Part shown: piece by piece, positions 2,726 through 55,033 of the stretch
Position numbering within the stretch: the stretch's first letter is position 1
Layout of the letters: each line of letters opens with the position of its first letter
Assembly (NCBI GenBank): GCA_015232855.1
Contig: JADFYW010000013.1
Coordinates: forward strand, 1 to 55,033
DNA: 55,033 nucleotides
Direction of reading: 5' to 3'
DNA from: Fibrobacteria bacterium
Lineage (GTDB): Bacteria > Fibrobacterota > Fibrobacteria > UBA11236 > JADFYW01
Translations under genes and position numbers: made by a program
The notes under the pieces: model-generated
What the model was told of the DNA's origin: nothing
The model's database searches: none
The model's input: the letters and a program-made list of their open reading frames with translations, nothing else

Positions 2726-2789
2726 ACAAAAGTCCTTTCCATTTTTTATTGTGCGGAGCACATTAGTAGGCTGATAGCTAACAGCTTAT
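2711..2789. repeat. Copy 2 of the direct repeat flanking the four-helix-bundle gene
   Basis: This segment overlaps the ribosome-binding site and start of the four-helix-bundle gene and matches about 2264-2362 with scattered substitutions (acaaaagtcctttccatttt, gcggagcacat, ggctgatagctaacagctta). Confidence 0.5.
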
Positions 2790-7129: not shown

Positions 7130-10100
7130 TTATTTCCTTTTTATTTTGAACAGTTTGAAAATCTTAGAGGACTTTTTATTACCTCGTTTAGCATAAATTT
7201 TGAGGTAATAGAGGCCGTTGGCCACTTCTTCCCCTTTGCTTGATTTACCATCCCACACGACTTCTTTATAGCCGGATTCAACAGGTTCTCTAAAAGACTG
7301 AACATATCTGCCTGCCCGGGAATAGATTTTAATACTAACTTCATCGGCCCAGTCTGTGAGCTGATATACAAAAACCGTTGTATCTGCAAAAGGATTGGGG
7401 TAACTGCCAATAACCTTAATTTTCAATCCACTCCCATAGCGGAAACTAAAGGGATAACGGCTTTGGTTACCTGAGATATCGTGCACAAGCACTTCAATCG
7501 AATCCCGCTTGATACGCTCATCAGGCCGAATCTGAAGAGCGCCGGTTCTTGCAAGAGGGTTTGACACCACCATCGAAACTTTGCTGGTATCGAAGAGGCC
7601 ATCACTTCCCAAAATTTCCGGGGGATGTAGAATGTAATCAATACCCGTATTGTCTCTGAGGGTTATATCCAGAGGGACTTTCTGAGGAATATAATCGTCT
7701 TGTAGTAATAACTGTCCTCTTGCCGTTACTGCAATTTTCGGGGCGGTATTATCATTATTAAGACATACGGCATAAACTCCAGCTTTAAAATAGTCTGCTG
7801 ATACTCTATCCGAAGAATTCCCCACCTGATCAAGCTTCAGCCAGTTTTCACTCTGCTCCACATAATAATGCCATTGGGGTGTTGTTGACGATTTTTTATT
7901 CAGTCCGCCTTTTACTGAATAGAGCAAATTGAAGTTTGTTGCGGTATCAGGCACCGACACATGATAATATCCAGGACCTCCGTCTTTTTGAGATACAACG
8001 GTTATATGCTCAGGTATCTTTGGAGTGACAAAGTTTTCCTCAATAAACACCCGTCCTGCCTTAAAATTTTCGACCGGTAACAAAACGAATTGAGAATCCA
8101 GTTTTAAGGTGTCTGATTGATTTTTTATAAACAGTGAACGAATAGTAAACTGGGTATCCGCTGAATTATTTGTGGTATTGTGCTCATTGTTCGCAGAAGA
8201 GGTAAGAATAGAAACACTAAAAGGCTTATTTAAGAGTGCATCCTTTATAAGAATAAAAACCGAGTCAACCTGATTTACGTTAAGGGTACGGGCGTAATCG
8301 AGGGTGTCTGTTACCTGGAGTGAATCAGACAAGGTAAAACTATACGCGAGTTTAAACTGAGAATCAGGGGCCAGGCCCTTGTTGAGTAACTTAACCCAAA
8401 CACCCAGAGAATCTTGTATGGGAACAGTAAAGGGCAGAGTAGAAAAACTAATATCAGATGGTAATTCAAGGGATCGTTCATAAATTTTAGATTCGATTTT
8501 AAGGTTGTTGGATCCACCCCCCTTTTTATGGTTGATTATTAAACGAATCTGAAAAAAGAGAGAGGGACTCACTAAGTCCTGACGCTGGGAATTAATTACT
8601 ATCGAATTTTGGGTTTCAAATTTTCCATCATCAGCCTGAGCAATAACGATTTCGTCCCCTTGCACAAAGTTCTCGGGCTTATCTTCAAAAACACCATAAA
8701 CAAAGGTCCCACCAAGAAAATCATATTCACCCGTTAATTTTTCGAGGGAAAAACGTACCTGCAAAGAATCTCCCAGTCCTATACGGGCAGGGCTCAAGGC
8801 AATGCTGTCAATGAGCCAGTCAAATGTTGAAAAATTAACATAGGCACTATGAGACACATCCCGGTCCCAATAATGAAAAACCATCTTTCCATAAAAGAAA
8901 TCGGAAGCTAAATTTTTACTTGAAAAAGAAAATGTGGTAGAAAAGCCCGAACCTGAAAAAGAAATTGGTTTGGACTGAACTGTTGAATCTTCTATAAATA
9001 AGGTGATAACCCCGGTTCCCGATTCTATCTTCAGATTGTCACCTTTGACGGTGAAATTGTGATTCTGGTTATCATGAGACTCTTCTGTTATTTCAAGTTT
9101 TTCCTCCGCATCCGGGAAATAGAGAGATGTTGCCGGATCCCCCAGTAAATCAAATTCTCCGGTTATGGGAAGATAAGACAAACCTGTTTTTAACGCCATC
9201 ATCGTTTCTGTTTGGCAGATTATACGACCTGCAGTAGTTTCTCCATTCATGGCCACAGCAGAAAAAAGTTCCTGCCCCATAATACTCCCCGCCTGGTCTG
9301 ATGTATATCCTGAAGCTCCATAAAAAGTTATGGCCCCGGTTCGGGGTAAACGGATAAGTTCTTCTCCCAAAGAACGAGCTCCGACATCTTCAAAATAACC
9401 GGTAAGGCAGGTGAGGGATGTAATGAGCGGAACCGCAAAGTCCCCTTTTAAGCTGTCGAGTTCTTTGAGCGTAAGGATACCCGCGTCAGACCAAACGGCC
9501 CCTCCCCCATGACCGATGAAATTTACAATGTTAAAGGCGGAATCCACCTGCCGGTAAAAACTTGGTTCATCCTGTAACGAACGGTAATAATTCGAAGAAA
9601 TTTCGATATCCAAACGAGAAATCTGCCGGTTATCAGTAACCAGTTGAGATTGCATAGTCTGATTGGCCCGGGTAAAGGACTTTTCGAAACCACCAACCAA
9701 CAGCACCTTGTTTTGCCAATGACCGCTTGACCGGACTCTTTCATGACGGAAAAGTTTATTTACAACAGTCGATAGCGCCTGCTGACTCGCAACAGGGATA
9801 CGTCCGATAAACACATCAGGTATATTGTCTTCTCCCGACAACTTGGCAAAATAATCATCGTTACTGGTTACCCCCCAACCCGGTATCTGAATGAGATTGG
9901 TGGGTACGATGTTTTTCTGGGTCGCTCCACTTTTTTTGTCAAACCACATGGAGGTTTCTCCCAATAGCAATACATACGCAGGAGCAGGCCTGCGCCATTT
10001 ATGAAAAGCATATTTTAAGAAGTCTCTGATAGCACGGGGGTTGGTGGCCCCGTCCCCAAACAACTGATAGATATGCTCAACAAAAATGGTTTTACATCTT

Positions 10101-12019: not shown

Positions 12020-12793
12020 TTATTTTACTTTGTAGTACTGACTACACGTTAATGATTGTTTGCGGTTAGCCGGTTCATTACCCGGCAATTGAGTAGAAAG
12101 AATACACCATTTAACCAGAGAAGTATCCTTTTCCAAATAAGGCAATTGTAAGCTGTCTGTTATAAACCCACCCGGAAAAAAATGACTACCTTGATTAGAA
12201 AAGGGGAAAAGCGTATCCACCACGTACCAACCCGCAGTCTCCAGCTTCTGAAAAGAAAAAAAACGGAACGTCTCACCATTATCGTTTGAAGACATAATAG
12301 TAAATGGAGTTTTTATTTGCGCACTGTATTCATCCTTGACCGGTTCAATAATGTTGACCTGTTGGGTAAAACTAAAATCAGCCCAACAAATAGAATCACT
12401 CTCCCAGCGTTGTCCCCCACTCGATACCCAGATAGCTTTTAAGCCATAAGAAATAGAATCAAATTTGGTATCTGGGAAAACATCAATAAAGGATCTTGTA
12501 TCCGCGCTAATTTCTGTTTTTGCCAATACTTCTACAGAATCCTGATGGAGAGAATAGAACAGTGAAAAAAAGCTCAATTGTTCTCGTTCATTTTCCGGGT
12601 ACTTCCAGTCTATTCTGAACCCTTTTTTTAAAGAAGTAGTATCATACACAACCAGTTGTAACGAGATAATCTCAACATTTTCGAGTTGAATGGTTTCCGT
12701 TTCAGGACAAAAAAAACTTTGGGACAGGATAACAAAGAACACCAGTAGTCCCAGGTCTTTTAGCTTTTTATACCCACAGGGCATAAGTTTCAT
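12020..12793 (-). CDS. Secreted protein of unknown function, first gene of the C25 peptidase operon
   Basis: The start at 12793 is preferred over 12805 because GGAGGG lies just upstream of it; this gives 257 residues. A basic N-terminus is followed by a hydrophobic stretch (L-G-L-L-V-F-F-V-I-L) and then S-F-F-C. The cysteine could be a lipidation site, but F-F-C is a poor lipobox, so secretion by either signal peptidase is possible. The body is beta-rich with many Thr/Ser/Trp, like a fibronectin-type or Ig-like domain (I-D-W-K-Y-P ... D-T-R-S-F-I-D-V-F). It ends 3 bp before the C25 gene, so it is probably a partner or surface anchor for that enzyme. I do not recognise a named family. Confidence 0.7.
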   Translation of the reverse strand: MKLMPCGYKKLKDLGLLVFFVILSQSFFCPETETIQLENVEIISLQLVVYDTTSLKKGFRIDWKYPENEREQLSFFSLFYSLHQDSVEVLAKTEISADTRSFIDVFPDTKFDSISYGLKAIWVSSGGQRWESDSICWADFSFTQQVNIIEPVKDEYSAQIKTPFTIMSSNDNGETFRFFSFQKLETAGWYVVDTLFPFSNQGSHFFPGGFITDSLQLPYLEKDTSLVKWCILSTQLPGNEPANRKQSLTCSQYYKVK

Positions 12794-12985
12794 TGAACCC
12801 TCCATTGTACCGCAAATGCGGGACAGTGGAGGGTCAATTCAGCTTTATAAAACTTTATGTCCATTGCACCATTTTACTAAACCTTGGGCAGTTTATTCTA
12901 TAAATTGTATGTTTTTTAACCTTGAGCCTCCCCCTTTAAGCTTGACTCTCTTTTGGCAGCAAGAAGAGCTACCATACACTTATAT

Positions 12986-13681
12986 TTAAAAAAACCAGGT
13001 TATCCCACCAGCGATAAAAGAAGCACCAGCCACAATTGCCATTGCGTTTCTCCATTTTATATGGTTGTTTAAATTAGCGGACAGTTGATTATAATCCGCA
13101 TTGGGATTGAGCGCGTCGTACTGAGTCCGGGCTCTACTTGCCTGTCTTTCTTCGTAATATGCAACAATACCGGTAACTATAGCCAAAGTAAAACAACTGA
13201 CTTTAACCGTAGATAAAAATGATGAACTGGTAGCCACCTCTGTTTCACGATGTACACGGGTAATTTTACCATCTCCTTTATTTCTCAAACGCACTTCTTT
13301 TTCCACATCGCTACCCGCATTTACCTGTATACTAAAGCTGGTATCTTCATAGCCACTGGGTGCAAAGATATCGACCAAATGACTACCTGACGGAACCAGA
13401 ATTTTATTTGCAAAACCAAGGGTTGATTCTTTATCAAAAAGGATATGTTTAAAACCAGGCACCACGGTAAAAGATACAAAACCAAACGGCTTACTTGTTG
13501 CGGTGATTTTTCGTTCAGGTACAACAGGAGCGACAGGAACCACATTTACCGGTTTTGGCTTGTTTACCGGAGAAACAAAGGATCGGTCAACAGGTTCAGA
13601 TGTTCCTAAGGAATCCTGAGCATACATGCCAGTAGACAAAATAAGCACGAAAAATAAAAAATGGTGTACTTTGAGAAACAT
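12986..13681 (-). CDS. PEGA-domain-like exported protein with C-terminal membrane segment
   Basis: A 231-residue protein with a clear signal peptide (residues 1-21, ending in G-M-Y-A-Q). A Pro/Val-rich linker leads to a PEGA-like beta domain (about 65-135) with the L-V-P-S-G-S-H-L-V-D-I turn, comparable to the L-x-x-G-x-H-x-V-x-V core of that family. Two further hydrophobic stretches (about 150-170 and 210-229) flank a helical, Arg/Asn-rich segment. PEGA proteins are surface or periplasmic and often bind the cell wall. A GAGGA ribosome-binding site precedes the ATG. It is transcribed toward the unknown/C25 pair but is separated from it by about 190 bp. Confidence 0.7.
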   Translation of the reverse strand: MFLKVHHFLFFVLILSTGMYAQDSLGTSEPVDRSFVSPVNKPKPVNVVPVAPVVPERKITATSKPFGFVSFTVVPGFKHILFDKESTLGFANKILVPSGSHLVDIFAPSGYEDTSFSIQVNAGSDVEKEVRLRNKGDGKITRVHRETEVATSSSFLSTVKVSCFTLAIVTGIVAYYEERQASRARTQYDALNPNADYNQLSANLNNHIKWRNAMAIVAGASFIAGGITWFF

Positions 13682-21665: not shown

Positions 21666-22775
21666 TTACATCATCACCAATTCTGCGTGGAGTGCTCCTG
21701 CTTTTTTGATACTTTGAAATATCGCTATTATATCTCTTGGCGGAACACCTAGTGAGTTTAGCGCTCTTGCCAGTTCACTAACACTTGTCACCCGGGGCAA
21801 CACCTTCACCTCTGCTTTTGGCTCATTAAACATCGCATTTTCTGAAGTGTTGGAATACCCACCAGCCGACCATTGTTTTCGACCTTGCGCTACCATCCCC
21901 CCGCTTTGTTTTTCAGTGTTTATTGAAATAGTAAGGCTTCCATGTGAAACCGCAACAGAAGAAATAGTAACCGCTCCCCCGGCCACAATAGTTCCCGTTT
22001 TTTCATTCATCACCACCCGGGCAATATCATCAGGTATAAAATCAAGACCCTCAATTTCTGCTAAAAATACAGGAGCACCACTCCCATAGTTTGCGGGCAT
22101 GATTATTTCCACACTTGCCGCGTCCTTGGCTTTAGCAACGCTACTCTTAAAATACTTGTTGATAGCTTCAGCCATTTTTACCGCGGAGTTAAAATCCGGT
22201 GAATTCAGGGTGTATTTAAAAATACTGTCCGGAAGAACCTGGTTCATACGTCCTCTTTGTACAATTGCGCCGTCAGGTATTTGCCCTGCTACGCTATGGT
22301 TTTTGCGGTAAGAGGAGAGTCCCGATTTACTTTCATAATTATATCCTCCGATGCTCACGGCTCCTTGTCCCACCGCATAAATTTTCCCGTCTGCCCCCGA
22401 TAAAGGCGCCATAAGAAGTGTACCCCCTTCAAGGCTCCGGGCATCACCAATACTTGAAACCGATACATCAACTTTACTCCCTTTTGTTAAAAAAGGAGAA
22501 ATTTCAGCCACAACCATAACCGCAGCCACATTTCGTACCCGAACCCGGCTCTGGGGTACCTGAATACCGAGATTACGCAACATATTAGCAACACCTTTAG
22601 TGGTAAAAATGGTCTGAGGTCCATCCCCGGTGTTCCGGAGACCAACCACAAGTCCAAAACCGGTGAGCTGCATATCGGTTAAACCACTCATATGGGCCAC
22701 ATCTTTAATCTTCACGGCCTGGGCCAGTGAAACTGCAAGTATGATCACTATGGTAAATAGAGTATACCTAAACAT
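21666..22775 (-). CDS. flgI: Flagellar P-ring protein FlgI
   Basis: A 369-residue periplasmic protein that forms the P-ring around the flagellar rod. It has a signal peptide (residues 1-19, ending S-L-A-Q-A) and the family hallmarks: I-K-D-V-A-H, Q-L-T-G-F-G-L-V-V-G-L, N-T-G-D-G, S-V-S-S-I-G-D-A-R-S-L-E-G-G-T-L-L, and the conserved end with L-N-S-L-G-V-P-P-R-D-I-I-A-I-F-Q-S-I-K-K-A-G-A-L-H-A. It is the last gene of the flgFGAHI operon. Confidence 0.97.
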   Translation of the reverse strand: MFRYTLFTIVIILAVSLAQAVKIKDVAHMSGLTDMQLTGFGLVVGLRNTGDGPQTIFTTKGVANMLRNLGIQVPQSRVRVRNVAAVMVVAEISPFLTKGSKVDVSVSSIGDARSLEGGTLLMAPLSGADGKIYAVGQGAVSIGGYNYESKSGLSSYRKNHSVAGQIPDGAIVQRGRMNQVLPDSIFKYTLNSPDFNSAVKMAEAINKYFKSSVAKAKDAASVEIIMPANYGSGAPVFLAEIEGLDFIPDDIARVVMNEKTGTIVAGGAVTISSVAVSHGSLTISINTEKQSGGMVAQGRKQWSAGGYSNTSENAMFNEPKAEVKVLPRVTSVSELARALNSLGVPPRDIIAIFQSIKKAGALHAELVMM

Positions 22776-22795
22776 GAGTTTACCTTCCTGTATTA

Positions 22796-23371
22796 CTAAA
22801 ACAACCAGTTAAAAAATCGTACAAAAATCCCGGGTTTTTGAGTGTCTTGCAAAACACCTTTACCCGTATATTTAATTTTAGCATCTGCTATCTGATATGA
22901 AAATATTGTATTATCAAATTGAATATCTTCCGGTCGAATGATACCCGAAACACGTATAATCTCTGTTTCATTATTTACCAGCACTTCTTTATTACCTTCA
23001 ATTAACAGGTTTCCATTGTCATACACCGCAACGATACGAGCAGCAACTTTTGCTTTAACCGTTCCTTCTCTTGACGTACGTCCTCTCCCATCATAATCGG
23101 ATTGATTGTCCATACCAAATCCCATATTGGGCACTAAATTTTTTAGTTTACCCGTACCAGCAGATACATTGAAGTGCGCTCGGTGATCCACATCGGTTTC
23201 TGTACGGGTATCATTATTGGCGCTGGCTTCTTCGATAATAAGCACGGTAATGATATCTTCCATTACTTTTGCTTTTTGATCTGAATACAATGAAAAGTTT
23301 ACCGGCACTTCCTGGGAAAAGAGCCCGGCAGTACACAATGTGACTAATAACAGTATCTTATGCATAAACAT
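22796..23371 (-). CDS. flgH: Flagellar L-ring protein FlgH
   Basis: A 191-residue outer-membrane ring protein, a little shorter than enterobacterial FlgH. The recognisable part is S-L-Y-S-D-Q-K-A, D-I-I-T-V-L-I-I-E-E-A-S-A-N-N, then V-A-A-R-I-V-A-V-Y-D-N-G-N-L-L-I-E-G, and I-R-V-S-G-I-I-R-P-E-D-I. The signal peptide (residues 1-19) has no good lipobox (its Cys lies within T-L-C-T-A-G), whereas most FlgH proteins are lipoproteins. It lies 20 bp ahead of flgI. Confidence 0.95.
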   Translation of the reverse strand: MFMHKILLLVTLCTAGLFSQEVPVNFSLYSDQKAKVMEDIITVLIIEEASANNDTRTETDVDHRAHFNVSAGTGKLKNLVPNMGFGMDNQSDYDGRGRTSREGTVKAKVAARIVAVYDNGNLLIEGNKEVLVNNETEIIRVSGIIRPEDIQFDNTIFSYQIADAKIKYTGKGVLQDTQKPGIFVRFFNWLF

Positions 23372-23377
23372 TCTCCT

Positions 23378-24394
23378 TTAACCTCTTGTAGCAAAAGCGA
23401 CCATTTCCATTTCACCCTCTTCTAACACCCGGGCACGTATGATCTTATGGGTAACTAAATTTTTTAGTTTTATTATTTGTCCGAGACGACCATCCTGCCT
23501 GGCAATACAATCCATGGCAAGAGACAAACCGTTACGAACGAGCTTTACCTGAACCCGCTGCCCCTGCCACACTATAGGCTCCAACTGTATAAGTCTGCTG
23601 GTTATCACACGATTGGCAATAATAGTCTGCCGGGTTAACTTTCCTTCTAAGGCCTGCAAGCTCTTCACCGGCACACCAGCCAGTTTGGTAATTTCTCTAA
23701 ATGCTTTCTTTAATTGCTGTCGTCCTACCGGCTTAGCCCTGCCAATGCGAGTTGAAGAAACCCAAACAGAATCATAGAGTCTTATGTAAATACTAAAAGG
23801 TATGCTACGAAGAACCTTTTCTTCTTCTGCAACAGAACTAATTACCAGTTGCAATTGCTGTTTACCTTTTCTCTCAAAGGTATCTAATGCTTTTATGTTC
23901 AATTTGTATGGGGTACAAGGCACATATAATTTTGGGGGTACCACATCAAATTCATAACGATATTCCAGGTCAGGGGCCCCATGGTAACCATCAAGAAATT
24001 GTTTTGTTAAGAGAGCGAGGGAATCATGGGTTAGTTCACGGGACGCAGTAATTACGCGAACGCGCTTATTTTGAATTTTTCCAAGGTCATATTTACTTTC
24101 TAATGCTTTCAGATAGAAACCATACAAGCGCCCTGTTGAAAGATAACGTGTCCGACCATAGTTCGCGGCCTTCCCAATAATTGTTTTTTTTAGTTTTTCT
24201 ACTTCTGGTCCATCTCCATTTATTTGAGCAATATCTTCAAATTTGATTTCTTCGGTTAACACCGTGATTTCATCAAAATAATTAACCTGAAGTTTTGATT
24301 GAGCAGCGAAAAGAAAACCAACCAAAAAAAGTATAACCGGAAAGGCCCGCAACAAACCTCGGTAGTTATAGCATTTAGTTTTCATAATTTTCAT
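23378..24394 (-). CDS. flgA: Flagella basal body P-ring formation chaperone FlgA
   Basis: A 338-residue periplasmic chaperone for P-ring assembly with an N-terminal signal/membrane segment (about 15-32). The C-terminal SAF domain (about 205-338) is diagnostic: R-A-K-P-V-G-R, I-T-S-R-L-I-Q-L-E-P-I-V-W-Q-G-Q-R-V and G-R-L-G-Q-I-I-K-L-K-N. It is longer than typical FlgA (about 220-250) because of the N-terminal 110 residues. It lies 6 bp ahead of flgH. Confidence 0.9.
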   Translation of the reverse strand: MKIMKTKCYNYRGLLRAFPVILFLVGFLFAAQSKLQVNYFDEITVLTEEIKFEDIAQINGDGPEVEKLKKTIIGKAANYGRTRYLSTGRLYGFYLKALESKYDLGKIQNKRVRVITASRELTHDSLALLTKQFLDGYHGAPDLEYRYEFDVVPPKLYVPCTPYKLNIKALDTFERKGKQQLQLVISSVAEEEKVLRSIPFSIYIRLYDSVWVSSTRIGRAKPVGRQQLKKAFREITKLAGVPVKSLQALEGKLTRQTIIANRVITSRLIQLEPIVWQGQRVQVKLVRNGLSLAMDCIARQDGRLGQIIKLKNLVTHKIIRARVLEEGEMEMVAFATRG

Positions 24395-24414
24395 TTCACG
24401 ATGAGTGTTTTAAA

Positions 24415-25203
24415 TTATCGTTTGAGTTGATTAGCCATCTGTAACATATCTTCTGAAGTTTGAATAGCCTTGGACGAAACCTCATAGGCCCGCTGAGCCA
24501 CAATCATATTTACCATTTCTTCTACTAGCTGCACATTTGAAGTTTCCAGGTAACCTGATTCGATATTTCCAAAGCCATTTTCTCCGGGTAGCTGGATATC
24601 TGCAGGACCGCTGGCTGCGGTGGGCAAATACAGATTATTTCCAATACTCTTTAGTCCGCTTGGATTTATAAACCGGGCAATTTCGATCTGACCGAGTTCT
24701 TCGAGAGTGTCAGAATCCGGCATGCGCACCTGTACACGTCCCCTATCATCAATATTAACGTCACTGGATCCTTCTGGAACAATTATAGGAGGGTCAAGAA
24801 GATACCCTTGAGAAGAAACCAGGGTCCCGTCCGCAGATATTTTAAACGAACCATCCCGTGTATAAGCCGTCTCACCATTAGGCATCATAATTTGAAAAAA
24901 GCCCTTTCCCGCAATCGCCAGATCATAGGAACTTCCTGTTTGGCTCATATTTCCCTGCGTAAACATTTTTAAATTCGCTACCGCTTTTACCCCTACGCCC
25001 ACCTGTAAGCCTGCAGGATGTCTGGCACCATCAGAATGCCCGCCTCCCGGTTCAATAAGGGTCTGATACAATAAATCTTCAAATTCTATTTTTGACTTCT
25101 TGAAACCCGTTGTATTAACATTTGCCAGATTATTGGCAATATTGTCAACATAAAGCTGGTTGGCCTTCATGCCTGTGGCGCCTGTATATAAGCTTCTAAT
25201 CAT
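24415..25203 (-). CDS. flgG: Flagellar distal-rod protein FlgG
   Basis: A 262-residue rod protein. It begins with the rod/hook N-terminal signature (M-I-R-S-L-Y-T-G-A-T-G-M, then N-N-L-A-N-V-N-T-T-G-F-K-K) and ends with S-N-V-Q-L-V-E-E-M-V-N-M-I-V-A-Q-R-A-Y-E and S-E-D-M-L-Q-M-A-N-Q-L. The length is that of FlgG (about 260). A strong ribosome-binding site (AAAGGAG) precedes the ATG, and 33 bp separate it from flgF. Confidence 0.97.
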   Translation of the reverse strand: MIRSLYTGATGMKANQLYVDNIANNLANVNTTGFKKSKIEFEDLLYQTLIEPGGGHSDGARHPAGLQVGVGVKAVANLKMFTQGNMSQTGSSYDLAIAGKGFFQIMMPNGETAYTRDGSFKISADGTLVSSQGYLLDPPIIVPEGSSDVNIDDRGRVQVRMPDSDTLEELGQIEIARFINPSGLKSIGNNLYLPTAASGPADIQLPGENGFGNIESGYLETSNVQLVEEMVNMIVAQRAYEVSSKAIQTSEDMLQMANQLKR

Positions 25204-25236
25204 ATTTTCTCCTTTACCCGCGGATTACAAGGACCA

Positions 25237-25974
25237 TCAGCCTACACGGCCTACTTCATTCACTGCTTTTTTCAATGTATCATCAGAACTCATAAGTGCT
25301 TTCTGGCTTGCCTCATAATTTCGATGAGCAATAATCATCTGAACCATAGATTCAACCGTATTCACATTGGACGTTTCAAGAAAGCCCTGTTTTAATGTGG
25401 AATTTTTGCTGCTTTCAGCAGAGTTATTTTCCTCATCCAAATTTTCAAAGTATCCCTTCCCCCTGGCAAGGAGCATGTTTTTGTTTTCAAATTCAAACAT
25501 ACCGAGTTGACCTATTTTTGTGCCTTTTACAAACAACCCACCATCACCCAAAACGGAAAAATCTTGCCCATTGAGTAAAATTCGGCCTCCATTAGTATTT
25601 AAAACGGGATCCCCCGAAAGTGTTACCAACTCACCCATAGCATTTAATGAAAAACTGCCATTACGTGTATATCTGGTGCCATCTTCAGTTTCAACAGAAA
25701 ATAACGCATCGCCTGATATTGCGATATCAAGTCCATTGTCAGTCTGTACTAATGGCCCCTGGGAAAAATCAGTATACACTTCATCAAGGTTTTGATCTTC
25801 ATCCTGATGCAGTTTTTGCTCGTCATTACGCTTAATGTCTACTTTTGCATTAGTTAAAAGCATGGACTTCTTAAATCCAGTAGTATTAGCATTAGCCAAA
25901 TTGTTACTGATGACATCCTGCTTTTTTTGCAGATGCATCATACTAACGGCTGATGTGTAAAGGCCGTTTACCAT
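25237..25974 (-). CDS. flgF: Flagellar rod protein FlgF
   Basis: A 245-residue rod protein of the same fold as FlgG (N-N-L-A-N-A-N-T-T-G-F-K-K near the N-terminus, E-T-S-N-V-N-T-V-E-S-M-V near the C-terminus) but shorter, with the D-I-A-I-S-G-D-A-L-F segment and an acidic, Lys-rich insert. It is the promoter-proximal gene of the operon and lies behind a near-consensus sigma-54 promoter. Confidence 0.94.
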   Translation of the reverse strand: MVNGLYTSAVSMMHLQKKQDVISNNLANANTTGFKKSMLLTNAKVDIKRNDEQKLHQDEDQNLDEVYTDFSQGPLVQTDNGLDIAISGDALFSVETEDGTRYTRNGSFSLNAMGELVTLSGDPVLNTNGGRILLNGQDFSVLGDGGLFVKGTKIGQLGMFEFENKNMLLARGKGYFENLDEENNSAESSKNSTLKQGFLETSNVNTVESMVQMIIAHRNYEASQKALMSSDDTLKKAVNEVGRVG

Positions 25975-42206: not shown

Positions 42207-42854
42207 TCACATTCTCCAAACAAAAATATCCCTGGCAATATCACTGTCCAGGGCTATCTCGGTATTTTCAAGCAACAGACAATAAGCCGGAGATTTCTGT
42301 TCCACACGTATCTGAATGCCAGGCACAATGCCAAAAGAGGCTAATTGCTGCATACGATCATGGCTTTTGGAACGGATATAGGCAATTTTCCCTTCTGAGC
42401 CCGGCTCCAGGTCTGAGATACAGCTGATTGTTTTCTCTACTTGTTTAGTCCCTTTAGTACAGCAAGTACCTGGGGGAACAGTCGTACCATCCGGCGCAAT
42501 CTCGGGATGTCCAAGCAGTGTACAAATAGACTCTTCCACTTCCGGTAAAAGCGTATGTTCAGTTTCACAGGCTACCCGCTCCATGGTATCAGGGTCGAGA
42601 TGCAACACATATCCCATCAGACATTCCGTCAGACGATGTCGTCTAGTTATCTGCCGGGCCAGGTCTTTCCCTTTTGGGGTGAGATACAGATGTACATCTT
42701 CCTGGCGAATAAGCTCATCAGTTTTGAGTTCTTCCACCAATTCTTTGTTTACAACTCCGTTTTTACAGTGTTTCTGAATAGAGAGAATTGAAGTTTCCTG
42801 GTGTTCATCCGCTGCCCAAATTGCTTCGAGTATTTCTTCTTTTTGATGGTCCAT
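42207..42854 (-). CDS. DtxR-family iron/manganese-dependent transcriptional regulator with FeoA-like domain
   Basis: A 215-residue regulator: winged helix-turn-helix (about 1-65), a metal-binding dimerisation domain (about 70-140; R-H-R-L-T-E-C-L, then C-E-x-E-H and E-E-S-I-C-x-L-L-G-H-P), and a FeoA/SH3-like C-terminal domain (about 145-215). Family members bind Fe2+ or Mn2+ and repress iron-uptake genes. It lies about 350 bp downstream of feoB on the same strand. Its cysteine-rich P-G-T-C-C-T-K-G segment is somewhat unusual for the family. Confidence 0.92.
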   Translation of the reverse strand: MDHQKEEILEAIWAADEHQETSILSIQKHCKNGVVNKELVEELKTDELIRQEDVHLYLTPKGKDLARQITRRHRLTECLMGYVLHLDPDTMERVACETEHTLLPEVEESICTLLGHPEIAPDGTTVPPGTCCTKGTKQVEKTISCISDLEPGSEGKIAYIRSKSHDRMQQLASFGIVPGIQIRVEQKSPAYCLLLENTEIALDSDIARDIFVWRM

Positions 42855-43206: not shown

Positions 43207-45171
43207 CTAAAAGGTTATCCCCAAAAACAAACAACCATAATTTACCGCTGCCCCTACTAATATCGCAGCAGGTATCACTATACCCATAATCCACATTGCA
43301 TATTTAAATCCCTGCTCTTTAAAAAGTACAATAACCGCGTTTACACAAGGAGAAAGAGAAGTCATTACCAGTAACAACACAACCGCCTGTAGACCGTTAA
43401 AGACACCTTTCATAAACAGTTGGTCAAGCATAGCTGCCCCTGCTTCGCGCCTTACCAGAGTCATCACTATCACTTCTACCGATTGTTCGGGGAGACCAAG
43501 TAGAATTCTTGACGTGGGAGCGAGTGCGGCCCGAAGAGCATTTAACCCACCCAACTTATCAAAGACAAAGAGTATAACCGCAGCCACCAAAAAGATAGGA
43601 ACCGCCTCCTTCATAAAAGTATAGAGACGAGACCATGCCCGTTTGAGTATTAAGAGAAAAGAGGGTAATCTGAGGGGGTGCACTTCCAAAATAAACTCTC
43701 CCCGTTTTCCCGGGATAAGTTTATCCGCAACAATACCCGCGATAATAAGTTTGAGAATAATCACCCCAAAAACCACAGCCATTGCGGACCAGTGGAGTTT
43801 GGCAAAAATTACAAACATCACCGAGAGCAACGGAGCACAAGGGATACCAAGTACCAGTAACATAGTTACAATGAATTTTTCTTTTTTCACGTCCAGCATC
43901 CGGACCGTCATAATAGCCATGGTGATGCAACTGAGGCCCATGATAAGGGGTAAAACTCCCTTTCCGTTCATGCCCATGATGCGAAATGCTTTATCGAGAA
44001 GTACCGACAACCGGGGCAAATAACCAGAATCTTCTAAAATACCAAAGAAGAGATAAAAGGTGAAAAGTACCGGTAACAATACACCAAAGGCAAGACCCAG
44101 TCCCACACTAACTACCCCGAAATTACCACAAAAAAAGTCGGTAACAAGCTGGTTGTTTAATGGCGCCAGCCAGCCCTCCACCAGTGGTATCAAAAATTCC
44201 CCAAACAATTTTCCTTCAAGGATACCCACCAGAAATTCCGCGCCAATCTTTCCTACAAAGATATACATGGCATAGGCAATCAGCCCGGCTATGGGAATAC
44301 CCAAAGGAAGCTGCATGGCCGCACGACCAATAGCGGTGACCAGAGGTCTTTTTTTCCGTTCCTCTTGATGAACAAACTCAGCAGCCAGGTTTTGGGCATA
44401 ATATACAAATGCTTCTGAAAGTACTACGCTGGGGCGCCGTTTACGATTTTCTTTAAGCGTTTTAAGCATAGAAAAACACTCATTCAGCACTTCCTGCCCA
44501 AAAGTCTCCTGGATAATCCCAATCGCCGACTTGTCCTCATTAATAAATAACAGCGCCAGTCCCCTCACCGGCAGCCCGACTCCTTCCCGCTTCAGACGTT
44601 CGGTAATGGCCCCAAGGGTTTTTTCAATATCTTCGGGAAGTTTGACCAGACGTTTGGGGACTGCGCTATAGGCAATAGCTTCCCGCAATTCTGAAATTCC
44701 CTGCCGTTCTCTGGCTATAGTGCGTACTACTTTAGCACCAAAAAGGACCGCTAATTTTTCTGCATCAATGGTTATGCCTTTTGCCTGGGCCAGGTCATCC
44801 ATATTAAGATTAAGGACCAGAGGAATACCAAACTCCGCAAACTGCAGGGCCAGAGCAAGACTGCGAACCATATTACTGGCATCCAGCACATGGACAATGG
44901 CTTCGACTTTTTCGGTTAAAATGTAATTACGGGAAAATCGCCCATCTTCACTTTGAACAAATACCGAGTTAAGACCAGGTGGGTCAATTAAGACTGTTTT
45001 TTCCCCTTTAAGCGTTCCCTCATTGTAGGTCACATGGGAGCCTGGAATGGTGGTTTCCAGCTGTTTTTTATCGGCTAAAGCCCTAAATATAGTGGTCTTA
45101 CCAACTTTAACATTACCCAGTAAACAAATTTTTCCGTTTTGTGAATCCATAACTCTGCTCAAAGGTATCAT
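43207..45171 (-). CDS. feoB: Ferrous iron transporter FeoB
   Basis: A 654-residue Fe2+ transporter with an N-terminal GTPase domain and a C-terminal membrane domain. G1 is G-N-V-K-V-G-K-T-T (rather than the usual G-N-P-N-x-G-K-S/T), G3 D-P-P-G (usually D-x-P-G) and G4 N-M-D-D. The membrane part has two Gate-like domains, with the F-x-x-x-x-E-D-S-G-Y-x-x-R signature (F-G-I-L-E-D-S-G-Y-L-P-R). Start may be the ATG 7 codons in, after V. It is shorter than E. coli FeoB but within family range. No feoA gene is adjacent. A DtxR-like box lies ahead of it. Confidence 0.95.
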   Translation of the reverse strand: MIPLSRVMDSQNGKICLLGNVKVGKTTIFRALADKKQLETTIPGSHVTYNEGTLKGEKTVLIDPPGLNSVFVQSEDGRFSRNYILTEKVEAIVHVLDASNMVRSLALALQFAEFGIPLVLNLNMDDLAQAKGITIDAEKLAVLFGAKVVRTIARERQGISELREAIAYSAVPKRLVKLPEDIEKTLGAITERLKREGVGLPVRGLALLFINEDKSAIGIIQETFGQEVLNECFSMLKTLKENRKRRPSVVLSEAFVYYAQNLAAEFVHQEERKKRPLVTAIGRAAMQLPLGIPIAGLIAYAMYIFVGKIGAEFLVGILEGKLFGEFLIPLVEGWLAPLNNQLVTDFFCGNFGVVSVGLGLAFGVLLPVLFTFYLFFGILEDSGYLPRLSVLLDKAFRIMGMNGKGVLPLIMGLSCITMAIMTVRMLDVKKEKFIVTMLLVLGIPCAPLLSVMFVIFAKLHWSAMAVVFGVIILKLIIAGIVADKLIPGKRGEFILEVHPLRLPSFLLILKRAWSRLYTFMKEAVPIFLVAAVILFVFDKLGGLNALRAALAPTSRILLGLPEQSVEVIVMTLVRREAGAAMLDQLFMKGVFNGLQAVVLLLVMTSLSPCVNAVIVLFKEQGFKYAMWIMGIVIPAAILVGAAVNYGCLFLGITF

Positions 45172-50293: not shown

Positions 50294-50446
50294 ATGAAAG
50301 GCATTCAGCTGGTTATTGCGGGTGTATTTGTCGGTGCCGTCTGCATGGAAATCCTCAACAGGCGTGCCAGAAGAAAAACATCAATACTGGGAAGTGCCCT
50401 GCGAGATGTAGCAAAAACGGTTAAACGAACCGTAAAAAGATTTTAA
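50294..50446 (+). CDS. Small single-span membrane peptide with basic tail
   Basis: A 50-residue ORF below usual gene-calling limits. An AGGAG lies 5 bp ahead of the ATG, with a good sigma-70 promoter upstream. It begins M-K-G-I-Q-L-V-I-A-G-V-F-V-G-A-V, a hydrophobic helix (about 4-20), and continues with a strongly basic, Arg/Lys-rich amphipathic tail (N-R-R-A-R-R-K ... V-K-R-T-V-K-R-F). One membrane span plus a basic tail is reminiscent in shape of small magnetosome proteins such as MamL, but I see no sequence match. It is convergent with ftsA, whose stop lies 5 bp away. Confidence 0.7.
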   Translation: MKGIQLVIAGVFVGAVCMEILNRRARRKTSILGSALRDVAKTVKRTVKRF

Positions 50447-50450
50447 TAAA

Positions 50451-51686
50451 TCACACGTACTGCTTAACCCAGGCGCCTACTTTTTTGAAAATATTTTTCA
50501 TATTATCACTACTTGCTTTTTCCTTGTTGGATTTGCCTGTTCGCTCGTTTGATAAGGCAGCATAGCGTAAAAGACCTGTCCCTGTTACAAAGGTAGGACC
50601 ACTTACCGCGTCCACAATACCCTTAACATTAAGAGGGCCAGAAACTTTAACCGGTGTGTTAAAGATATCTTCTGCCAACTCAGCCGCCCCTTCAAGTAAG
50701 GCGCAGCCGCCAGTTAATACCAGGCCGGCTCCAAGGCGGTCGAGTACCTGCTGACGTTGGAGCTGACTATACACCAGAGAAAATATTTCCCGCATACGGG
50801 GTTCTATAATAGATGTAATAATACTACGGGTTATCTCCCGGGCCCCCAGGCCACCCACTCCCGGTACGTTTATAATTTCATCTTTTCTGAGGTCTTTCAG
50901 GGAACAACTGCCATAGAGCTTTTTAATTTCTTCAGCCTTGTCCAAAGGCGTTCTAATACCCACCGCCAGATCACTGGTCACCGTCTTCCCGCCCAGTCCT
51001 ATACAAGAAGTATAAAACTCAGTAGAATCAAGGTACACCGATATATCTGTGGTCCCGCCGCCGATATCCACAACAGCTACTCCCAGTTCTTTTTCATCGT
51101 CATCCAGTACAGACAAAGAGGATACCACCGGAGATACTGCGATACCCGCAACCATAATGCCCAACTTTTCCATGCTCCGGTATATATTTTGTAGCGAAGA
51201 AGCCGAACCAATAACCATATGTATCTGCGACTCAAGTCGTACCCCAGACATTCCCACAGGCTCCATAATACCATTCTGATCATCTACAATAAAATCCCGG
51301 GGAGTAAGGAATATTATTTCTTTATCCATAGGAATAGCCACCGCTCTGGCCGCATCAATCACCCTGCTCACATCAACGTCTGTTATTTCGTTGTCCGCCC
51401 GACTCACAGCCACCACACCACGGCTGTTCATGCTATAAATGTGTTCACCACAAATACTCACATAGGCCTCATGGAGAGTAATCCCGGACATAAGCTGCGC
51501 TTGTTCAATGGCGTTTCTCACCGCGTGCATGGTTTTATCAATGTTAATAATGACGCCCTTGCGCATTCCTTCTACCGGCTCCACTCCCGCACCCATAATT
51601 TTAAGAGCACCGTCTTCTGCGACAGAGCCAATGAGTGCGCACACCTTTGTGGTTCCCAAATCAATTGCCATTATTGGAGTACTCAT
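50451..51686 (-). CDS. ftsA: Cell division protein FtsA
   Basis: A 411-residue actin-fold protein. The phosphate-binding loops D-L-G-T-T-K-V-C-A-L and D-I-G-G-G-T-T-D-I-S are present, as is the 1C (SHS2) subdomain between about 80 and 160 that defines FtsA, absent from MamK, MreB and ParM. The C-terminal helix (M-K-N-I-F-K-K-V-G-A-W-V-K-Q-Y-V) is the amphipathic membrane anchor. FtsA tethers FtsZ to the membrane. Unusually, no ftsQ precedes and no ftsZ follows it. The gene is convergent with the 50-codon gene and divergent from the magnetosome-like operon. Confidence 0.95.
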   Translation of the reverse strand: MSTPIMAIDLGTTKVCALIGSVAEDGALKIMGAGVEPVEGMRKGVIINIDKTMHAVRNAIEQAQLMSGITLHEAYVSICGEHIYSMNSRGVVAVSRADNEITDVDVSRVIDAARAVAIPMDKEIIFLTPRDFIVDDQNGIMEPVGMSGVRLESQIHMVIGSASSLQNIYRSMEKLGIMVAGIAVSPVVSSLSVLDDDEKELGVAVVDIGGGTTDISVYLDSTEFYTSCIGLGGKTVTSDLAVGIRTPLDKAEEIKKLYGSCSLKDLRKDEIINVPGVGGLGAREITRSIITSIIEPRMREIFSLVYSQLQRQQVLDRLGAGLVLTGGCALLEGAAELAEDIFNTPVKVSGPLNVKGIVDAVSGPTFVTGTGLLRYAALSNERTGKSNKEKASSDNMKNIFKKVGAWVKQYV

Positions 51687-52135
51687 AGTACAATTCCTTA
51701 TTAAAATCTATAGAGCCTTATTTTTTAAAGACTTACAAACAAGAGAAACCGGACAACCTGCCCGATATTGCATAACTTACTATGAATTAGAATTTTACAA
51801 CAAAGAGCGCATTAAAAATCAGAAGAAAAATATTTTGTGTGTTTTAAAGCACTTTTGTGCTCTTTTTAGGACAATTATAAAGTGTTGTTTTATGAGAAGT
51901 TACGAAAGAAAAGAAAAATATGCGCTTGATTCAATAAATTAAGCACAAGTTTTTTAAAAATTAATATCTTTTCAATTTAGAAATCACATCTAATAGTTAA
52001 TTGATACGTATTAATTTAGAAATAAACTAAAACAAAAAGACAAAAAAGCTGAAATTCAACAAAAACATCATCATATCATGAATTTAAGTTTTTCGGGCAC
52101 AATTATTGCTTATGAGTTTATTAACTAGATAAAGT
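51687..52135. other. Divergent region between ftsA and the magnetosome-like operon
   Basis: A very A+T-rich stretch of about 450 bp. It has a short hairpin (aagcacttttgtgctc plus T-run, about 51846-51866) of weak terminator form. Its right end carries the sigma-54 promoter of the next operon (52095-52110). No gene is convincing. Confidence 0.55.
52095..52110 (+). promoter_or_regulatory. Sigma-54 promoter of the magnetosome-like operon
   Basis: GGGCACAATTATTGCT differs from the sigma-54 consensus TGGCACG-N4-TTGCW at only two bases and keeps the invariant GG (52096-52097) and GC (52108-52109) at the right spacing. Transcription would begin near 52121, about 15 bp before the first ATG of the operon. 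Confidence 0.8.
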
Positions 52136-52537
52136 ATGAACACAGAAAAAACAATTCCCGCTCTGATCCTTGGCGACAAAAACGCAGAGTTCCACAGCAG
52201 TCTCAATAACTTTCTTGAGGACCTTGATATTGAAGTAAAATGCTTCACTACTGGAGAGCGGGTAATTTCAGAAACCAAAAAAAATCAGAATGTGTTCCTG
52301 ATTGTGCTAAGCGAGTCATTGAGCGATATCGATTCATTTTCAACCATCGACATTATCCAGCAAAAATCCGGGCATAATATTCCCATAGTCGTACTGCTAC
52401 AAAAATATTCTGACGATTTACAAAAAAAGATAATCCAACGTAATATCCTCTGCAGCATTGGCGAACCCATAAATCTGCAGGATCTTAAAACTCTTGTTAA
52501 AAAAAATTTACAAAATCACCTTTCCAAAAAAGATTAA
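52136..52537 (+). CDS. Receiver-like protein lacking the phospho-acceptor Asp
   Basis: A 133-residue protein with the alternating beta-alpha pattern of a response-regulator receiver domain (A-L-I-L-G-D-K-N-A-E-F, then V-F-L-I-V-L-S-E-S-L, I-P-I-V-V-L-L-Q, and L-C-S-I-G-E-P-I-N). In a true receiver the first strand ends in two acids, the third in the phosphorylated Asp, and the fifth in Lys-Pro. Here these are G-D, Ser and Glu-Pro, so phosphorylation is not expected. It has no output domain. It is the first gene of the sigma-54 operon, 14 bp before the MamA-like gene. Confidence 0.7.
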   Translation: MNTEKTIPALILGDKNAEFHSSLNNFLEDLDIEVKCFTTGERVISETKKNQNVFLIVLSESLSDIDSFSTIDIIQQKSGHNIPIVVLLQKYSDDLQKKIIQRNILCSIGEPINLQDLKTLVKKNLQNHLSKKD

Positions 52538-52551
52538 AGGCGGAATAAGCT

Positions 52552-53172
52552 ATGAACCCTAATTTTTCCATGACCATGAACACCGTGCTTATCAAAGCCC
52601 GCTCTGTAGGACGGAAACTGGTAGACGGGTACAAAGGAATTGTCCAACTCGACAATTCTGAAACTTCTGAATTATACAAAAGCCTTGGCGACACCCTGAC
52701 CAAAAAAGGTGACGGAGTACGTGCCATCAATCTGCTTAAAAAAGCAGTGGAGCTAAACCCCGAAGATGGTAAAATAGCCAGTAAACTCGGGCAAGCCTAT
52801 TACAAAACCGGCGAACCAGAAAAAGCCCTTCCCCTCCTCGAAAAAGCAAATGTATTGGGCCCTACCGTAAGCAATTATTTATACATCAGTAAAATTCACT
52901 CCGATAAAGAAGATTTCAAAAAAGCCGTTGATTCTCTTGAAACTGTTGTAAAACTAAACCCGGACAACGCAAAAGTGCATTACCAGTTGGGTGTAAACTA
53001 TGACAAACTCAAAAATGTCGACAAAGCAATCGAACATTTTAAAAAGGCCATTGAAATAAACCCTTATGTACCCAAATATCATTTCTCACTGGGTTTTTTG
53101 TACGATTCAAATGAAAAACATGATGAGGCTATAAAATGCTTTAAAAAAGCTATAGCGTTGGAGAAGGATTAA
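52552..53172 (+). CDS. mamA: TPR protein, MamA-like
   Basis: A 206-residue protein with five tandem TPRs at about residues 40-72, 73-105, 106-139, 140-173 and 174-206, each ending in the usual A-V-x-L-N-P-type junction (A-I-N-L-L-K-K-A-V-E-L-N-P; A-I-E-H-F-K-K-A-I-E-I-N-P). The size, the number of repeats and a non-TPR N-terminal helix that includes R-K-L-V-D-G-Y-K match magnetosome protein MamA, as I recall it (K-K-L-G-M-N-M-V-D-A-F-R before its first repeat). MamA coats the magnetosome surface. It could be a general TPR protein; the LemA and HtrA-like neighbours favour MamA. An AAGGCGG ribosome-binding site lies 8 bp before the ATG. Confidence 0.65.
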   Translation: MNPNFSMTMNTVLIKARSVGRKLVDGYKGIVQLDNSETSELYKSLGDTLTKKGDGVRAINLLKKAVELNPEDGKIASKLGQAYYKTGEPEKALPLLEKANVLGPTVSNYLYISKIHSDKEDFKKAVDSLETVVKLNPDNAKVHYQLGVNYDKLKNVDKAIEHFKKAIEINPYVPKYHFSLGFLYDSNEKHDEAIKCFKKAIALEKD

Positions 53173-53185
53173 CAACGGGTAAATA

Positions 53186-53896
53186 ATGAGCAATATTGGC
53201 GACGAAGTAAAACGACTCTACGGCGAAGAGCTAAGCGAAAAGAAACTTCCTGGTAAAAAAGGGAAAAAGTCTGTCTTTTCCTTTCTCCAAAACAAAAATG
53301 TGAGAACGCTATTTGTAGTAGGCATCATTATCTTTGTCGTATGGCACCTTGTAATGGCCTATGGTATCATCTATTACAACCAATTTGTTACTCTTGATCA
53401 GTACATTAAGGCCCAAACCAGCCAGATAGAAAAAGAATATCAACGAAGAAACGACCTTGTCCCCAATCTTATCAAAGTAGCCAGAGATTATGCGCAACAC
53501 GAGAGGGAACTTTTTCACCATGTATCCAACACCCGCTCCATTCTCGAGTCGGCAGAAAAGCTCGCAAAAGAATACGAGCTCGAAAACCAGGCCAAAGTCA
53601 AATCAGACATTGATAATGTCATGTCCAAACTAGTGGCTCTTTCTGAGCAATATCCCGACCTCAAAGCAACTCAGAGTTTTCAGGACCTTATGGGTATGCT
53701 AGAAGACACCGAAAACCGTATTGCTTCTATGCGGGATAAGCACATTGCCTATGTAATGGACTATAACACGCTGGTAGTCACATTCCCCTCCAGTTTTTTT
53801 AATTGGATCTATGGCTTTGAACCCCATGATTATTTTGCTTCAAAAAACGCCGGCAAACCTGTCCTTGATAAATCAGATTCTTTATTAGTTGAGTAA
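53186..53896 (+). CDS. mamQ: LemA-family membrane protein, MamQ-like
   Basis: A 236-residue protein. A 40-residue charged N-terminal extension precedes one membrane span (residues about 41-64); the LemA coiled coil follows (Q-I-E-K-E-Y-Q-R-R-N-D-L-V-P-N-L, E-Q-Y-P-D-L-K-A-T-Q-S-F, E-D-T-E-N-R-I-A, Y-N-T-L). In ordinary LemA the span is close to the N-terminus, while in magnetosome MamQ it lies after a charged extension as here; the H-V-S-N-T-R-S segment also recalls MamQ. MamQ is required for magnetosome membrane formation. It follows the MamA-like gene by 13 bp. Confidence 0.68.
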   Translation: MSNIGDEVKRLYGEELSEKKLPGKKGKKSVFSFLQNKNVRTLFVVGIIIFVVWHLVMAYGIIYYNQFVTLDQYIKAQTSQIEKEYQRRNDLVPNLIKVARDYAQHERELFHHVSNTRSILESAEKLAKEYELENQAKVKSDIDNVMSKLVALSEQYPDLKATQSFQDLMGMLEDTENRIASMRDKHIAYVMDYNTLVVTFPSSFFNWIYGFEPHDYFASKNAGKPVLDKSDSLLVE

Positions 53897-53898
53897 TT

Positions 53899-54462
53899 AT
53901 GGCAGAAAAACTTTATTCAAAAGGCGATATTGTGGGTATGTTCGGGAAGACCCTGTCCAAGAGTATATCTGTTGCCGGTGCCGGAGTTTTTATCGGCTCA
54001 AAGTTTTTTGCAACAGGGGTAAGAGGCTTATTCTGGTTTACCAGCAAACAGATTGACCTTACCCATTCCCTTACAAAAGCAAAGTATAAAGTTTATAAAA
54101 AACCAAATAAAACCAGACGTCCTTCAGTCGATATGGTAACATCCCCTGCCAAACCCGCTATCGCCCAAAGCATAAATATCGCAACAGAACTCAAATTGGT
54201 AAAACAAGCACTGGATTACAGCCAGAGGGCTTATGAACTAAGCATCCTTCCCATGGCAGAAATCGACTCTATTGACGGCCAGGCCATTGCCATAACCACA
54301 GCGCTCCAAAACCATCTAAACAAAGAAGACAATATTAAATTCAAAGAAGATCGCCTGCACCTGGTAGACAACATGTTACAGGCAGCCCATTTCTACAGAA
54401 AATATCATCAGACGGGCAAAGAAAAACATTTGTCCAAAGCAAAAGAACTACTCATAAACTAA
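53899..54462 (+). CDS. Unknown membrane-associated protein of the magnetosome-like operon
   Basis: A 187-residue protein. Residues about 22-49 are moderately hydrophobic (S-V-A-G-A-G-V-F-I-G-S-K-F-F) and could span or lie on the membrane; the remainder is helical with a Lys-rich linker (K-Y-K-V-Y-K-K-P-N-K-T) and a second helical domain (about 85-187) reminiscent of a TPR-like pair (L-K-L-V-K-Q-A-L-D-Y-S-Q-R-A-Y-E; D-N-M-L-Q-A-A-H-F-Y-R-K-Y). I do not recognise a family. It begins 2 bp after the MamQ-like stop, so its translation is likely coupled. Confidence 0.8.
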   Translation: MAEKLYSKGDIVGMFGKTLSKSISVAGAGVFIGSKFFATGVRGLFWFTSKQIDLTHSLTKAKYKVYKKPNKTRRPSVDMVTSPAKPAIAQSINIATELKLVKQALDYSQRAYELSILPMAEIDSIDGQAIAITTALQNHLNKEDNIKFKEDRLHLVDNMLQAAHFYRKYHQTGKEKHLSKAKELLIN

Positions 54463-54511
54463 ACATATGGCAAGTATTCAATTTTTAATAAAACAAACGA
54501 CTGTAAATGTC

Positions 54512-54592
54512 ATTACCCGGCTTGACCGGGTAATCCAGTACACCAACCTGTGTCAAAAACCTGGTTTGGATTGTCCGGTCAAGCCGGACAAT
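54512..54592. repeat. Pair of facing REP-like palindromes
   Basis: attacccgg-cttga-ccgggtaat (54512-54534) and attgtccgg-tcaag-ccggacaat (54570-54592) are each perfect 9-bp hairpins and are related to each other in inverted orientation. They lie between the unknown membrane gene and the protease-like gene and could reduce read-through or protect the upstream transcript. Confidence 0.75.
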
Positions 54593-54621
54593 GACCTGCA
54601 TCGGGAAAATATCAAATACTA

Positions 54622-55033
54622 ATGAAACTGAGAATAGAAAAAAGAGAAATTTTATCCTGGAGCATATCCATTGTTGTTTTTACTGTTGTAGCTACGGCCT
54701 GGTTTTTCTTTGGAGAAGACAGCCCAAGAGATATCCTGGATAATTTACCGGTTACCGCTTCCCGCGAAACACCGGCTGTACTCCCCACCTTTCCTAACCA
54801 GGGTGTTGCGGTGGGTGTACCTATGCAGGCAGGTCAGAACCAGTTTGCCCGGAACGCCACATTACTTAAGCCGGCAGTTATCACCATTTGTACTTTGGGT
54901 ACCATTCAAGGCCAGGGTTATCATCTGGAGTTTATGAACACAGGCACTATTATACATCCCAATGGATTTATTCTTACCAACTATTCCCGCAGGGCAAAAA
55001 ACAAAGATCTTAAAGTCATCTTTCACGAATTTT
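54622..55033 (+). CDS. HtrA-like (MamE/MamO-type) membrane protein without catalytic His, cut by the window edge
   Basis: The first 137 codons of a gene that runs past the window. The N-terminus is basic, with one membrane span (about 12-30), then a Pro/Gly/Val-rich segment, and the start of a trypsin-like fold from about residue 80: L-L-K-P-A-V-I-T-I and G-T-I-I-H-P-N-G-F-I-L-T-N-Y. In HtrA/DegP and MamE the next residue is the catalytic His (T-N-x-H-V); here it is Ser in T-N-Y-S-R-R. That makes this a pseudo-protease, as MamO is thought to be. There is no good ribosome-binding site before the ATG. Confidence 0.7.
   Translation, partial: MKLRIEKREILSWSISIVVFTVVATAWFFFGEDSPRDILDNLPVTASRETPAVLPTFPNQGVAVGVPMQAGQNQFARNATLLKPAVITICTLGTIQGQGYHLEFMNTGTIIHPNGFILTNYSRRAKNKDLKVIFHEF

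Follow-up and report, generated by a model that had tools for sequence, protein, structure and literature searches.

Outside the Pseudomonadota, magnetosome genes are known largely from metagenomes, and the control of their expression is largely open. Metagenome-assembled genomes (MAGs) of magnetotactic Fibrobacterota with a magnetosome gene cluster (MGC) have been reported by Lin 2020 (PMC7602337), whose main text describes no individual genes for this phylum; because of that report, the phylum is not new for magnetosomes. The nearest relatives of the genes described here are found in the Elusimicrobia genome NORP122 (contigs NVTF01000115 and NVTF01000117), for which the describing paper, in the part consulted, names mamI, -B, -M, and -N only, and in loci of Omnitrophota and Planctomycetota. 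The present analysis concerns a stretch of 55,033 nucleotides (the window, contig C44, JADFYW010000013.1) from a Fibrobacteria bacterium (GCA_015232855.1; 5.38 Mb in 350 contigs, 79.7% complete, contamination estimate 1.65%). As judged from sequence, the right end of the window is very probably the promoter-proximal part of a magnetosome operon, and two magnetosome gene regions besides this operon are present in the same genome, on contigs C336 and C295. The system is of a known kind in a phylum with earlier reports, with an unusual combination of parts. With the Lin 2020 MAGs, the genome shares the (presumed) phylum, an MGC, and the metagenomic origin, and it could belong to those MAGs or be closely related to them.

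A preliminary description of the window had seen consecutive plus-strand genes at its end and proposed the start of a magnetosome cluster, which is now supported by protein models, trees, gene order, and hallmark genes elsewhere in the genome. Five consecutive plus-strand open reading frames (ORFs) fill positions 52136-55033 (Table 1); the four genes that had been listed stand, and the receiver-like gene that begins at 52136 had been overlooked. The five-TPR protein is MamA-like as described, since the second-best NCBIfam model reaches 77 bits vs 165 for MamA, and its best natural match in the PDB is MamA 3vtx. The putative MamQ has the proposed layout, a charged N-terminus followed by one membrane span, and is the only LemA gene in the whole assembly. 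Relatives were collected from named magnetotactic bacteria (MTB): a single-protein MamQ scan of genome contigs returned none, and magnetosome loci were instead fetched by a magnetochrome DNA pattern, with which 28 genomes were picked. In trees, both proteins group with magnetosome homologues, as had been expected of them, and are sister to their NORP122 counterparts (support 97/92 for MamQ and 93/94 for MamA).

The gene order is shared with NORP122 as well. There, NVTF01000115 carries mamA, mamQ, a 189-aa ORF, an HtrA gene lacking both catalytic His and Ser, and a magnetochrome-PDZ gene; the MamQ proteins are 41% and the MamA proteins 38% identical. The 187-aa protein of the window, previously called an unknown membrane protein, has no family match in the library searches, and its membrane nature is doubtful because mean hydropathy stays at or below 1.5 in every 19-residue stretch sampled. 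It is 26% identical over its full length (E 1.7e-7) to the protein at the same position in NORP122 (L130, 4352-4921). The last gene, within which the contig ends, escaped the family libraries and was placed by alignment. The fragment has a single span, carries TNYSRRA where the catalytic-His motif TNHHV of DegP aligns, and matches the position of the His- and Ser-less HtrA of NORP122 (L130, 3463-4374). Because the catalytic His is absent, the fragment, which covers the span and the N-terminal part of the HtrA domain, points to a probable MamO-like pseudo-protease and not to MamE. NORP122 differs in its phylum, its separate mamP, its tandem mmsF-like genes, and its single mamB/mamM pair in the fetched contigs, in which neither a module like that of C295, nor an FtsA paralog, nor a paired regulator (all described below) was seen. 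The NORP122 piece L130 (62-6502) holds mamA, mamQ, two HtrA-type genes, and one magnetochrome-PDZ gene, and L053 (NVTF01000117, 2-2267), also from a magnetosome contig, holds short DUF4870 (MmsF/MamF-like) genes arranged in tandem.

The preliminary description had recommended looking for further magnetosome genes to the right, where the contig ends at 55033; a search of the remaining genome in its place recovered mamB/mamM and MamP-like magnetochromes, while mamK was not recovered. Five magnetochrome hits (PF18509) lie on C336 and C295, against none in 14 control genomes and none in the 167 other genomes among the 168 phylum genomes searched. On C336, a 984-aa protein fuses PDZ, three magnetochromes, PDZ, and MamN (MamN 5e-100, MamP 1e-53), and its MamP-like region is 51% identical to that of NORP122. 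PDZ-MamN fusions occur in Omnitrophota nDJH6bin5 and in CSMAG_2693, and the full fusion including magnetochromes was not found among the best matches in the fetched loci. The same contig encodes a MamB/MamM-like pair of cation diffusion facilitators (CDFs), a TauE protein, a MamD/Mms6-like GL-repeat protein, an MmsF-like DUF4870 protein, and, as a possible counterpart of MamL, a LapA-type protein; MmsF-like genes are also shared with NORP122. Mms6 has an acidic C-terminus after the GL repeat, whereas that of the C336 protein is basic, and the similarity to Mms6/MamD amounts to 36 bits vs at most 16 in 60 shuffles. Earlier, mms6/mmsF genes had been reported only in Pseudomonadota and then in Nitrospinota and SAR324 (PMC7602337). 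The CDFs of both C336 and C295 score higher on the MamM/MamB models than on FieF. Gene identities, conserved gene order, and the joint presence of magnetochromes and two pairs of CDFs in a single genome bin are what the sequences show directly.

C295 carries a seven-gene module in the order NifX-domain, zinc-ribbon, NapH, PDZ, magnetochrome, MamM-like, and MamB-like. This order matches magnetosome loci of Omnitrophota (nHLHbin2, nDJH6bin5, nDJH15bin6, nDJH6bin28, nCal2bin1, and MBPbin6) and Planctomycetota (nwagbin3), either completely or over the part that the fetched pieces cover, and the NapH proteins are 55-59% identical. In nHLHbin2, mamQ lies about 5-10 kb from the module (taking both as one contig from the equal contig size), whereas in the present genome the module is apart and a second mamB/mamM pair is located on C336. 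The nearest relatives therefore differ between the C295 module (Omnitrophota/Planctomycetota) and the window operon (NORP122). It is conceivable that all these genes belong to one magnetosome island with a duplicated mamB/mamM rather than to two clusters of different origin, an alternative that deserves serious weight while falling short of an even chance. A single LemA gene in the assembly and the neighbouring tree positions of the C336 and C295 CDFs speak for one island; the C295 pair, however, forms groups with CDFs of Omnitrophota and Planctomycetota that leave out C336 (support 100/98 and 100/100), the C336 pair sitting outside and next to that clade, and the C295 module keeps the seven-gene order of those phyla. 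Since the C295 CDFs group with other phyla without C336, the split predates this genome, and the different placements mean that two differently placed mamB/mamM pairs are present in one genome bin, which bears on ancient inheritance vs transfer of magnetosome genes between phyla.

MamQ and other proteins bend the inner membrane into the magnetosome, which is coated by MamA, and MamO-like pseudo-proteases serve nucleation, not proteolysis. Iron enters through MamB/MamM, its redox state is controlled by magnetochromes, and crystal shape depends on proteins of the Mms6/MamD and MmsF kinds. The receiver-like gene, mamA, mamQ, the 187-aa gene, and the mamO-like gene would form the operon start in a probably flagellated member of the Fibrobacterota, and the other contigs would supply the MamB/MamM iron transporters, the magnetochromes, MamN, and the crystal-shaping proteins. 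No assignment of the loci to magnetite or greigite is claimed, because Lin 2020 and Uzun 2020 treat the Omnitrophota differently.

Both loci are preceded by sigma-54-type sites. Intact GG and GC cores are seen in the site located 25 bp ahead of the mamA operon, in the one ahead of the C295 module, and in the one ahead of a regulator gene on C295, which is a perfect match. The match at the mamA operon has a Markov rate of 1.1e-5 per strand position, so that a match within any particular 100-bp stretch is expected about once in 1000 cases, and a perfect site is rarer. The upstream sequences of the mamA operon and the NifX gene share no more than shuffles do. Whether transcription of the magnetosome operons depends on sigma-54 we consider evenly balanced from these site matches; among the papers searched, none was relevant to sigma-54 control of magnetosome genes. 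The C295 regulator and the 1109-aa hybrid regulator of the window are 43% identical end to end, and these two are the only full-length copies in the 168 phylum genomes when the four best candidates per genome are scored. A search of 27 MTB genomes found no full-length homologue at 1e-100, which shows little, as it was made without a positive control. The window regulator keeps the sigma-54 activator motifs GSFTGA and Walker B LDEIG, while its C295 paralog has lost both, with KLPDGS in place of GAFTGA and IKGI in place of Walker B. Their recognition helices are nearly identical (NRTSLYHILKK in the window, NRTSFYHILKK on C295). The window protein is therefore a candidate activator, and the C295 paralog, with the same kind of DNA-binding helix and a sigma-54 promoter of its own, would bind those sites too, fail to activate, and so act as a brake. 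This division of roles is possible and, on present evidence, rather doubtful. The candidate regulator pair and the promoters offer concrete, testable parts.

To the left of the operon lie further genes that may be part of the same region. The preliminary description put a probable left edge at 52136, where the first operon gene starts; the magnetosome region may reach further left, to the FtsA paralog (from 50451), the hybrid regulator (from 45400), and feoB (from 43207). The FtsA copy in the window is 53-56% identical to the genome's own FtsA and to those of order relatives and has a very long branch (2.56), whereas the genome's own FtsA, in the dcw cluster on contig C22, is 70-80% identical to those relatives, each of which has a single FtsA match. 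In the tree, the window copy is nearest to the genome's own FtsA. A MamK search of the genome with MreB_Mbl (PF06723) gave one strong MreB and otherwise weak hits, including both FtsAs and one other protein, and the dcw FtsZ is the only FtsZ in the genome, with no second one as a partner of the paralog. The second FtsA may have taken over from MamK in organising magnetosomes, a hypothesis that we rate as improbable and the weakest step of the explanation; an FtsA duplicate would then have replaced the usual magnetosome cytoskeleton. The joint proposal of two modules that differ in their nearest relatives and are both controlled by sigma-54, with an activator/brake pair and an FtsA replacing MamK, is likewise improbable as a whole.

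In Riflebacteria nDJH6bin19, locus L131, picked by the magnetochrome pattern, encodes a 46% identical homologue of the DtxR-FeoA protein next to feoB, and the FeoB proteins of L131 and the window are 40% identical. As feoB usually belongs to MGCs (PMC7602337), the window feoB may be a member of the magnetosome region, and the DtxR-FeoA gene is a possible member of this iron/magnetosome region. The 50-aa ORF aligns locally with two C336 ORFs with scores of 61 and 54, above all 500 shuffles in each case. In sum, the parts that look new are the two differently placed mamB/mamM pairs, the PDZ-magnetochrome-MamN fusion, the fast-evolving FtsA paralog beside the operon in a genome from which no MamK was recovered, the sigma-54-type promoters before both loci, and the two paralogous kinase-sigma54 regulators, one per locus, of which the C295 copy lacks the GAFTGA and Walker B motifs.

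Table 1. Features of the right part of the window, the operon first and then the genes to its left
Feature	Position	Strand	Evidence
Candidate sigma-54-type -24/-12 promoter	52095..52110	+	GGGCACAATTATTGCT, a single mismatch; both cores (GG, GC) kept
Receiver-like protein, 133 aa, first operon gene	52136..52537	+	Response_reg 2.4e-6, 28 bits (cut-off 30.2)
MamA, 206 aa, five TPR stretches	52552..53172	+	NCBIfam MamA 1.3e-48, 165 bits
MamQ (LemA domain)	53186..53896	+	NCBIfam MamQ 4.6e-34, 118 bits; PF04011 2e-39
Conserved magnetosome-operon protein, 187 aa, function unassigned	53899..54462	+	Homologue at same place in NORP122
Putative MamO-like pseudo-protease, N-terminal 137 aa, cut by contig end	54622..55033	+	Aligned with NORP122 and the genome's DegP/DegS proteins
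DtxR-type iron regulator fused to FeoA	42207..42854	-	Fe_dep_repr_C 1.5e-19, FeoA 1.1e-12
FeoB ferrous iron transporter	43207..45171	-	FeoB_N 1.2e-36
Hybrid regulator, 1109 aa	45400..48729	+	PAS, histidine kinase, two receivers, sigma-54 AAA+, Fis-type HTH (Pfam)
Small ORF, 50 aa, one span	50294..50446	+	Resembles C336 ORFs 5997-6200 and 6215-6379
FtsA paralog	50451..51686	-	FtsA 3e-37, SHS2

Several points weigh against a magnetosome operon continued on other contigs and controlled as proposed above. The main doubt is the assembly itself, an incomplete MAG of 350 contigs: an overlap comparison could not join C44, C336, and C295, and the last 200 bases of C44 match no other contig of the genome. 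Neither a mineral nor magnetotaxis is on record. In this 79.7%-complete genome, mamI (for which no model search was made), mamK, and a full mamE were not found, and a Trypsin_2 search for the remainder of the HtrA protease or for MamE gave two DegP/DegS-like proteins of the housekeeping type and no others. The C336 units are preceded by no convincing sigma-54 site, the -12 element of the C295 module is so near the start of NifX that its transcript would have almost no leader, and other sigma-54 activators adjoin C295, which itself also encodes shorter sigma-54 regulators, so that the pairing of activator and promoter is an inferred one. The mamA operon lacks, in its upstream region, an inverted repeat that occurs on C295 (ATTGC-N6-GCAAT), and both MamA (165.2 of 200 bits, NF040959) and MamQ (117.8 of 250 bits, NF040966) miss the curated NCBI cut-offs.

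The missing mamK, mamI, and mamE could also indicate a silent or decaying cluster, whose genes are present while no magnetosomes are made; silent MGCs have a precedent in a phototroph, according to the consulted part of PMC9938234. The intact reading frames, the promoter matches, and the flagellar genes argue against it, and about 20% of the genome is missing, which leaves this explanation unlikely.

Somewhat less probable still is that all or some of the magnetosome contigs are contamination from another magnetotactic bacterium in a Fibrobacterota bin. The fragmented and incomplete assembly, the lack of magnetochromes in any other of the 168 phylum genomes, and the different nearest relatives of the C295 module and the C44 operon would fit such an origin. 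On the other side, besides the low contamination estimate, the GC contents of C44, C336, C295, and the dcw contig C22 agree (40-42.5%), and tetranucleotide correlations among pieces of these contigs are 0.50-0.79 vs 0.14-0.27 with a relative's contig. Furthermore, the closest neighbour of the C44 FtsA copy in the tree is the FtsA of this very genome, the paralogous regulator pair links C44 with C295, and the small-ORF family links C44 with C336; a mixed bin is thus unlikely. As for the host, the earlier suggestion of an FCB-like bacterium is borne out by 38 Fib_succ_major domains; a genus in this class, with about 80 species, supplied three further genomes, which have 87-99 such domains each. 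These counts agree with the expectation for Fibrobacter, and we infer the phylum Fibrobacterota. The window encodes the type IX secretion sortase PorU (7130-12016) and, at 21666-25974, the flagellar FlgI (21666-22775) with likely basal-body neighbours. From PorU and FlgI, it follows that the organism has genes of the type IX secretion system kind and probably flagella.

The missed cut-offs are an unfair bar, because only 4 of the 28 pattern-picked genomes have a MamQ above the curated value and 24 are without one. MamQ proteins of Elusimicrobia, Omnitrophota, and Planctomycetota score 99-126 bits, a range that includes the window protein (118), and other LemA-type hits in the same MTB genomes reach at most 87 bits, except for second MamQ-like copies. 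Even in a canonical mamM-N-O-P-A-Q-B cluster (L142), MamA scores 165.2 and MamQ 154 bits. That ordinary LemA/TPR/HtrA envelope-stress genes merely resemble magnetosome genes here, as the wide distribution of these domains and the missed cut-offs might suggest, is highly improbable given the gene order shared with the NORP122 magnetosome contig, the tree positions of MamQ and MamA, and the magnetochromes, MamN, MamP, and MamB/M in the same genome.

L142 (VSDH01000034, 358-8000) belongs to a MAG named as an anammox bacterium, Candidatus Scalindua sediminis MohnsGC08_192, and contains a canonical mamM-mamN-mamO-mamP-mamA-mamQ-mamB run whose MamB (359 bits) is above the cut-off. Its CDFs group with Pseudomonadota and Nitrospinota, mis-binning is possible, and among the papers searched none joined Scalindua and magnetosome terms.

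Beside the C295 module (L009, 2102-8551; L050, 12641-13972), three paralogous sigma-54 activators (50-57% identical) and two small dinitrogenase FeMo-co-domain proteins are encoded, together with sigma-54 sites of which one is perfect (7583-7598). This flank looks like a separate iron or Fe-S regulon. The inverted repeat mentioned above occurs in four exact copies within 20 kb of C295 (L009, 17613-17662, 12022-12037, and 2835-2850), two of them upstream of the magnetosome module; C336 has none, and the window has one imperfect copy (6666-6681). On C336 (L008), a 98-aa protein (12773-13069) and a TPR protein (2309-3679) both start with KRMSxPRLAxxFxLTLxEVKxLK, and their shared N-terminal stretch is 56% identical over 41 residues.

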